From contig JAIXTY010000175.1 of assembly GCA_027483705.1 (NCBI GenBank), positions 1 through 33,648 on the forward strand: 33,648 nucleotides of DNA, in the 5' to 3' direction. The stretch comes from Rubrivivax sp. (GTDB taxonomy: Bacteria > Pseudomonadota > Gammaproteobacteria > Burkholderiales > Burkholderiaceae_C). The position numbers and the translations under genes were made by a program. Positions 24,979 through 30,143 of this stretch are shown here, in pieces; position 1 is the stretch's first letter; each line of letters starts with the position of its first letter. The notes beneath the pieces were generated by a model, which did not search any database, was not told the origin of the DNA, and saw nothing but the letters and a program-made list of their open reading frames with translations.

Positions 24979-25050
24979 GGCAGTCCTCTTCGGTGAGAAG
25001 GGCCAACGGGTGCGGGCCGGCGCCATGGGAGGCAGGCACGACACGGCCGA

Positions 25051-25170
25051 GGGCTGCCCAGGCGAACGGCTGACACCGGCGGGCTGAAGTGCCGAAGCGG
25101 CCCGCGGCCTGCGCTTCCCGGTGGTCGTCCACCTCGGGGCCGGGCGGCCCCTATCGCCAGTCGCGCAGGG
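25051..25170 (-). ncRNA. ZTP/pfl-type riboswitch upstream of glyA
   Basis: Minus strand CCTGCGC-GACTGGCGA ... GGTGG-ACGA-CCACC-GGGAA-GCGCAGG ... GCCGTTCGCCTGGGCAG; P1 CCUGCGC/GCGCAGG and P2 GGUGG/CCACC perfect. Confidence 0.85.
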
Positions 25171-25217
25171 CGCCAGTGTAGCGCCCGGGGGGTGTCGGCC
25201 GGGCCCGCAAACGCGCG

Positions 25218-26126: not shown

Positions 26127-26381
26127 CGTCGACACTCTCCCGTCGTGCCGCGGCCTTGGCCGCGGGCGGCAGCGGCCGCTGGGGCGCGCTGCGGATAATC
26201 GTTCGACGGGGCGCCCATCCAGGCGTTGCATGGGGGCCGGCTGCCCGTCGTCGCAGGGTCCGCGTGGCGGATCGAGGCAGGCGCCTCGGGGAAAACCCTG
26301 TTGGTCGAAATCGGCGCGGACTCTAACAAGCGCTAAATACCCGGTCAAGAATATGAAGCGCCAACTACAGAACCTGTGGCT

Positions 26382-27944
26382 ATGAAGTACGCTGATCTCC
26401 GAGACTTCATGGCCCAGCTCGAAGCCCAGGGTGAGCTTCGAAAACTCGGCGAACCGGTGTCGCCACACCTGGAACTCACGGCCATCGGCGACAGGCTCCT
26501 GCGATCCGGCGGTCCGGCCCTGCTGTGCACGGCGCCGGTCGGTTACACGATCTCCTGCTTGATCAACCTGTTCGGCACCCCCCGGCGCGTGGCGTTGGGG
26601 ATGGGGGCGTCCGAGGTGGCCGAGTTGCGCGAGGTTGGCTCGCTGCTCGCCAGCCTGAAGGAGCCCGAGCCCCCCAAGGGCCTGAAGGACGCCGGCAAGC
26701 TGCTGCAGATGGGCAAGGCGCTGTGGGACATGAAGCCGGCCACCGTGCGCCGTGCCGCCTGCCAGGAGGTGGTGATCGAGGGCGACGACGTCGACCTCGG
26801 GCGCCTGCCGGTGCAGACCTGCTGGCCGGGCGACGCCGGGCCGCTGATCACCTGGGGCCTGGTGGTGACGCGCGGGCCGCAGTCGGTGGCGCAGCCGCGG
26901 CTGCGCCAGAACCTGGGCATCTACCGGCAGCAGGTGATCGGCCGGCGCGAGGTAATCATGCGTTGGCTGGCCCACCGCGGCGGCGCGCTCGATTTCCGCG
27001 AGTTCGCACGGGCCAACCCGGGCCGGCCGTTCCCGATCGCCGTGGCGCTGGGCGCCGATCCGGCCACCATCCTGGGCGCCGTGACACCGGTGCCCGACAC
27101 GCTGTCGGAGTACCAGTTCGCCGGCCTGCTGCGCGGTGGCCGCACCGAGGTGGTGGACAGCGGGGTGGGGGAAGGCGAGCGCCGCCTGCAGGTGCCGGCC
27201 AGCGCCGAGATCGTGCTCGAGGGCCACATCCCGCCAGCCGAGCCCGGCTTCGCAGGCGAGAGCGAGCGCGGCGTGCGCCTGAAGGAGCTCAACGGCTACC
27301 TGCACGCCCTCGAAGGCCCCTTCGGCGACCACACGGGCTACTACAACGAGCAGGACTGGTTCCCGGTGTTCCGCCTCGCCCGCATCACGCACCGGCGCGA
27401 CCCGATCTACCACTCCACCCACACCGGCAAGCCGCCCGACGAGCCGGCGGTGCTGGGCGTGGCGCTGAACGAGGTGTTCGTGCCCATCCTGCGCAAGCAG
27501 TTTCCGGAGATCGTCGACTTCTACCTGCCGCCCGAGGGCTGCAGCTACCGGATGGCGATCATCTCCATCAAGAAGGCCTACCCGGGCCACGCCAAGCGGG
27601 TGATGTTCGGCCTGTGGAGCTTCCTTCGGCAGTTCATGTACACGAAGTTCATCGTCGTGACGGATGACGACGTCGACATTCGCAACTGGCAGGAAGTGAT
27701 CTGGGCCATCACCACGCGCATGGACCCGGTGCGCGACACCACGCTGGTGGAAAGCACCCCGATCGACTACCTCGACTTCGCGTCGCCCGTCAGCGGCCTG
27801 GGCGGCAAGATGGGGCTGGATGCCACCAACAAGTGGCCGGGCGAGACCACGCGCGAGTGGGGCCGCACGATCGCCATGGACGCCGCCGTCACGGCACGCG
27901 CCGAGGCCCTGGTGCAGGGGCTGCTCGCCGCGGGGCATGGATGA
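26382..27944 (+). CDS. ubiD: UbiD family decarboxylase (4-hydroxy-3-polyprenylbenzoate decarboxylase)
   Basis: [57 protein letters not shown]. Confidence 0.96.
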
Positions 27945-27989
27945 ACGATCAGCTTGTGACGCTCCGCCGGCGGGCGTAGATTCGACACC

Positions 27990-28125
27990 GCCTTCGACGA
28001 AGGCAACACCGATGGCGCAGTCTCTGCGCGTCAGGGGCCCCGGACTCCATGCCTCCGGAGCTCCACCTGGTGGCGAGAGCCACCCGCCCCTCCGGCCGGC
28101 GACGGCTCGGAGGGGTTTCGCCTTC
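27990..28125. ncRNA. Candidate structured RNA (unassigned family) in the ubiD/ABC-transporter intergenic region
   Basis: Hairpins 27990-28004, 28015-28029, 28042-28064, 28069-28084 (GAGA loop), 28087-28115 (GCGA loop), plus alternative closing helix 27999-28004/28120-28125. Confidence 0.45.
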
Positions 28126-28244
28126 AGCGCCTGCCAAACGACATAGACCACGCGGGCGGCTCGGTCGTCACGCGCGACTTCGATAATCCCGCGATTCGGC
28201 CCGCGCCACGACGCGGGCCCATGACGACATCCCGGGGAGCGCGC

Positions 28245-30143
<1,899 letters not shown>

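Follow-up and report, generated by a model that had tools for sequence, protein, structure and literature searches.

What kind of RNA, if any, is encoded between ubiD and the neighboring ABC exporter gene in the Rubrivivax sp. stretch analyzed here (contig JAIXTY010000175.1; 33,648 nucleotides, hereafter the window)? A sequence-only reading of this DNA had described four hairpins in the intergenic region, two with GNRA loops and one of these terminator-like, together with two mutually exclusive pairings of the segment GAAGGC, and had left open whether these features represent an independent sRNA, an element of the ubiD 3′ UTR or a leader of the exporter. The comparative analysis presented below points with high confidence to an independent small-RNA gene that extends from 27990 to about 28126 on the + strand and belongs to a family found in many genera of one betaproteobacterial family. 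Covariation, a promoter, a terminator, wide conservation and the lack of a match in Rfam together lend strong support to the first of the three options. The flanking genes are as follows.

26376 to 27944, + strand: ubiD, the upstream neighbor (Pfam UbiD, UbiD_C and UbiD_N)
28221 to 30143, + strand: ABC exporter gene, the downstream neighbor, lying outside the element (Pfam ABC_tran and ABC_membrane)

The window also carries an ordinary ZMP/ZTP riboswitch (RF01750, 42.3 bits) at 25049-25174 on the − strand, upstream of a − strand glyA-like serine hydroxymethyltransferase gene, and this riboswitch is likewise present in homologous loci L047, L058, L068 and L079.

All of the segments quoted in the sequence-only reading are present at their positions in the window. 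Folding of 27985-28130 (146 nt) gives a minimum of −79.0 kcal/mol, compared with −61.9 ± 4.2 kcal/mol for dinucleotide shuffles (z = −4.02; none of 200 shuffles equally stable), and the entire intergenic region yields z = −3.62. The stem content therefore exceeds that expected from base composition, which settles the concern, raised with the original proposal, that shuffled sequence might form as many stems. Five hairpins make up the structure:

27990 to 28004, + strand: P1, the 5′-terminal hairpin GCCTTC-GAC-GAAGGC (97.2% of cells paired; double changes in five of six pairs)
28011 to 28032, + strand: P2, a hairpin with an extension formed by 28011-28013 and 28030-28032, a bulged G28014 and conserved apical residues A28019 and T28021
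28034 to 28064, + strand: P3, a hairpin with a pyrimidine-rich loop (93% of cells paired; double changes in nine of ten pairs)
28069 to 28084, + strand: P4, the hairpin GGTGGC-GAGA-GCCACC (95.7% of cells paired)
28087 to 28119, + strand: P5, an intrinsic terminator stem CCCCTCCGGCCG/CGGCTCGGAGGGG followed by a T-tail (stem present in 97 of 97 individual homologue folds)

The positions of the hairpins, with the terminator-like stem among them, were thus correctly recognized from the outset, and several details required revision. The core of P2 (GCGCAG-TCT-CTGCGC, 28015-28029) stands as first drawn, with the extension adding three pairs to it. P3 had been drawn as GGACTCC paired with GGAGcTCC; its strands are instead GGGGC (28034-28038) with GCTCC (28060-28064) and CCGGA (28040-28044) with TCCGG (28054-28058), separated by a C-A mismatch. 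GNRA loops are not a conserved feature, as the P4 loop reads GTCA in 23 of 97 homologues and is otherwise highly variable.

The conservation of these helices was assessed with alignment A1, which comprises 54 sequences aligned by sequence only and from which a covariance model was built, and with a set of 97 sequences from genomes and metagenome-assembled genomes that was collected by this model and realigned from sequence alone. In A1, 90.9% of the 2245 cells belonging to the five helices are paired and 34 of 43 pairs exhibit compensatory double changes; this level of pairing was reached by none of 500 shuffles, and slid controls gave 37-45%. The homologues share a mean pairwise identity of 63%. 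When every pair of columns among the 97 sequences was tested against every other, using a null that keeps the tree plus the substitutions of each branch, just three column pairs reached E ≤ 0.05; each of them is a proposed pair, and they lie in P1, P3 and P4. The P1 pair 27994-28000 (E ≤ 0.01) is among them, and the P4 pair 28071-28082 is the strongest of all column pairs. A test confined to the proposed pairs, with the same tree-based null, found 8 of 42 to be significant, with at least one in each helix: 27994-28000 in P1, the extension pair 28012-28031 in P2, two pairs in P3, three in P4 and 28091-28111 in P5. Folding of each sequence alone recovers P5 in all 97 cases, and P1, P2, P3 and P4 in 94, 96, 90 and 95, respectively. 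Some caution applies to the set of 97, since the covariance model served to collect it, even though the realignment drew on sequence only. The check for covariation in homologues that the sequence-only reading had called for was thus passed by all five hairpins against a phylogeny-keeping null, and by this comparative evidence the hairpin architecture is a conserved secondary structure with covariation.

The second proposed pairing of GAAGGC fared differently. The window sequence can indeed form both exclusive helices, and its computed minimum contains the long-range helix (27999-28004 with 28120-28125), by a margin of just 1.6 kcal/mol (−79.0 versus −77.4 kcal/mol); it is absent in relatives, however. 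Its positions are paired in 59.2% of cells, a level that shuffled or slid partners match, its covariation scores under the tree-based null are near zero, and it appears in the minimum-energy fold of only one of the 97 sequences, namely that of the window itself. At the place of the second GCCTTC, relatives have the T-rich tail of the terminator (U-rich in the RNA). The nearest relative, locus L003, reads CGCTTTGT at this site, where its TTTCGCTTTGT corresponds to TTTCGCCTTCA in the window. Because the relatives carry a T-rich tail and L003 differs from the window here, the second GCCTTC is best regarded as a variation of the terminator tail in one species. Among the loci compared, a search for the marks of a riboswitch or two-state leader found neither conserved alternative pairings nor a constant downstream gene. 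The two-state switch was accordingly ruled out as a candidate, and a riboswitch-like leader of the exporter that toggles between two GAAGGC pairings, as first envisaged, has become very improbable.

Upstream regions of 98 loci were aligned on the first base of P1, and promoter positions were counted from that base. The aligned regions display TTG at −35 to −33, followed by C or A and then A, and TAnnnT at −12 to −7. In the window, this pattern corresponds to the first two of the following features, and the third is the gene that they would serve.

27954 to 27959, + strand: −35 element TTGTGA (T 97%, T 84% and G 88% at −35 to −33 across the 98 aligned upstream regions)
27977 to 27982, + strand: −10 element TAGATT, separated from the −35 element by a 17-bp spacer (T 91%, A 93% and T 93% at −12, −11 and −7)
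27990 to 28126, + strand: sRNA gene with a predicted transcript running from +1 at 27990 to the end of the T-tail at about 28118-28126 (promoter geometry, terminator, a covariance model score of 131.5 bits and 99 homologous loci)

A generic promoter scan of the window called no promoter, the −35 element being too weak alone, and the site emerges only by comparison. Judged from its conserved bases, the promoter is of the sigma-70 type and fixed in position. This fixed geometry places the beginning of P1 at a canonical +1 (27990). The RNA would therefore open directly with a hairpin and run to a terminator hairpin followed by the T-tail, for a predicted length of approximately 130 bases. Across the 97 homologues, the terminator tail averages 6.8 T in 11 nt; the tail in the window is interrupted (TTTCGCCTTC), which counts against the reading of this region as an sRNA gene.

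The genomic surroundings of the element bear on whether it belongs to one of its neighbors. The ubiD gene lies upstream in 96 of 99 loci, and in most genomes the element follows it by roughly 20-180 nt, as would be expected of an RNA derived from the ubiD 3′ UTR or of a transcription terminator serving that gene. Such an origin is nevertheless unlikely in view of the conserved promoter immediately upstream of P1, the four hairpins that precede the terminator, and the presence of another gene in place of ubiD at two loci, L020 and L024 (a third, L141, reaches the end of its contig). The products of the upstream genes in L020 (1-1475) and L024 resemble each other, and that of L020 has no Pfam match. 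On the downstream side the gene varies among genomes, with the ABC exporter family occupying this position in only a handful of 49 loci compared. The conserved promoter at the 5′ end of the RNA and these changing neighbors disfavor both the 3′ UTR element and the exporter leader that had been suggested; an RNA with its own promoter and varying neighbors is therefore neither an exporter leader nor tied to ubiD. By the comparison of loci, the element is a gene in its own right, whose location is for the most part stable.

Homology searches reveal how widely this gene is distributed. Matches to relatives obtained with blastn coincide approximately with the hairpin domain (intergenic query positions of about 57-180), mostly at 72-83% identity, and were found in about two thirds of 36 same-genus genomes; loci retrieved by way of ubiD carry the same element after that gene. 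The covariance model located the element in 43 of 60 same-genus genomes, the weakest match (23 bits) being doubtful, and in 94 of 301 genomes of the family, representing 46 of 141 genera. Carriers with names include Rubrivivax, Rivibacter, Piscinibacter, Roseateles, Pelomonas, Rhizobacter, Azohydromonas, Aquabacterium, Ideonella and Methylibium. An order-wide genome sample yielded no covariance-model matches outside the host's family, and in a class-wide sample only the host's own genome was matched; these large scans used strict filters, such that weak relatives may be missed. In covariance model scans the element occurs nearly always once per genome. Candidate second copies, represented by weak extra matches of 23-33 bits whose alignments rest mainly on GC-rich stems and on terminators, were regarded as chance. 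When the regions downstream of ubiD in relatives apparently lacking the element were examined with full scoring, the best value was 16.7 bits and did not stand out. Four same-genus genomes, G007, G031, G437 and G457 (loci L178-L181), have kept ubiD with no recognizable element downstream of it, nor convincingly elsewhere, and appear to represent losses within the genus.

The conserved element might alternatively specify the mRNA of a small protein, an explanation to which we attach almost no weight. Complete ORFs of at least 15 codons are confined to 15 of 97 homologues and lack a start common to many of them, and the lengths of homologues differ by non-multiples of three. A conserved ORF is thus absent from this set, and a small-protein mRNA was ruled out.

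Beyond what the comparison itself establishes, we infer transcription, stability, association with a chaperone and a mode of action. The predicted transcript would be stable, with P1 and P5 protecting its two ends. It would act in trans, with a chaperone (ProQ and/or Hfq) holding its terminator end. Its contact surfaces for partners, whether these are mRNAs or a dedicated protein, would be the apex of P2, constrained in sequence, and the G-poor, A/C-rich single strands of the P1-P2 linker, the P3 loop and the P3-P4 linker. Genes for both Hfq and a protein with a ProQ domain are present in the host genome. In the betaproteobacterium Neisseria, Rho-independent terminators are the main sites at which ProQ contacts RNAs, and the protein stabilizes sRNAs (PMC7272453). 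Given these chaperone genes and the preference of Neisseria ProQ for terminators, a stable, chaperone-held, trans-acting sRNA is therefore favored, and by analogy the RNA is probably bound by chaperones of the ProQ/Hfq type. In addition to the full Hfq encoded on contig C86, the genome contains a second, partial Hfq-domain match (G000:C268:18619-18714; 46.9 bits) in an open frame of 51 aa.

How such an sRNA would recognize its partners can be approached from the distribution of conserved bases. The linkers and the loops of P1 through P3 contain 3-11% G (P1-P2 linker, 3%; P3 loop, 8%; P3-P4 linker, 11%), and the P4 loop alone reaches 28%. G-poor strands of this kind can remain open in a GC-rich RNA and are able to reach G-rich partners. 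The linkers and the P3 loop are rich in C and A and nearly free of G, and the commonest P3 loop is CCUCAUUCC, as might be anticipated if the sRNA base-pairs in trans with mRNAs through its unpaired C/A-rich segments, possibly at Shine-Dalgarno regions. We judge the probability of this mode of action to fall somewhat short of even: anti-Shine-Dalgarno words show no clear excess over shuffled segments, those of six bases are missing from the P3 loop, and this loop turns into AGAU/AAAU-type sequences in one clade. Most loops and linkers vary freely among the 97 homologues, a pattern not usually seen in an sRNA that base-pairs through one seed.

The same variability of loops and linkers, set against conservation in the stems and in the P2 hairpin, would suit an RNA that does not base-pair with targets and instead binds a protein in order to titrate or steer it, as do 6S and CsrB. 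P2 is constrained in sequence beyond its pairing, as judged from the alignment: G28014 is retained in 92, A28019 in 95 and T28021 in 96 of 97 homologues, and these residues are near-invariant even where A28019 is unpaired. A protein-binding role is a real but tentative possibility, however, because 6S RNA is encoded by a separate gene in this genome and the element does not adopt its rod-like fold, the GGA motifs that form the CsrA signature lie in stems and not in loops, and no candidate protein was identified. More speculatively, and with considerably lower probability, the RNA may be an undescribed, lineage-specific global regulator, conserved in at least some 46 genera, that uses the near-invariant P2 hairpin to bind a protein, in a role like that of 6S or CsrB with a new fold.

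Comparison with known RNA families gave no assignment. With Rfam 15, neither the element in the window nor six homologous loci matched a family at the gathering score, and at E ≤ 10 the element region yielded only chance-level matches, which bears out the earlier impression that the architecture resembles no known riboswitch or sRNA. Like 6S RNA, the element is a mostly paired, single-copy sRNA, although the two folds differ. An identity with 6S RNA was ruled out, since the sole RF00013 match in the genome sits elsewhere (G000:C130:8623-8805) and none occurs in the element region. CsrA sponges of the CsrB/RsmZ type are marked by multiple A(N)GGA motifs in the loops of their hairpins; such motifs were not found in loops of the conserved structure, in which GGA triplets reside in stems. 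The element shares G-poor, C-rich unpaired segments with C-rich-loop (anti-Shine-Dalgarno) sRNAs of the Rhodobacter CcsR type, but has no fixed CCUCC motif and does not conserve its loop sequence. A search of the literature on sRNAs of the carrier genera found nothing relevant to the element. One candidate RNA reported from the Burkholderiales, the Burkholderiales-1 motif, is listed without an Rfam accession (Weinberg et al., 2010; PMC2864571), and the present family could be the same. With this reservation, the element is a new family of structured intergenic sRNA that is not catalogued in Rfam. An uncatalogued, single-copy, strongly structured sRNA carried by dozens of genera is a part so far missing from the picture of RNA regulation in betaproteobacteria. 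It can be annotated directly with the alignment and covariance model, and several of the carriers are cultured strains, among them Rivibacter subsaxonicus, Roseateles toxinivorans and Piscinibacter defluvii. Among known systems, the ProQ-associated structured sRNAs, such as those of Neisseria, are likewise highly structured and end in a terminator of their own, a likeness of general kind.
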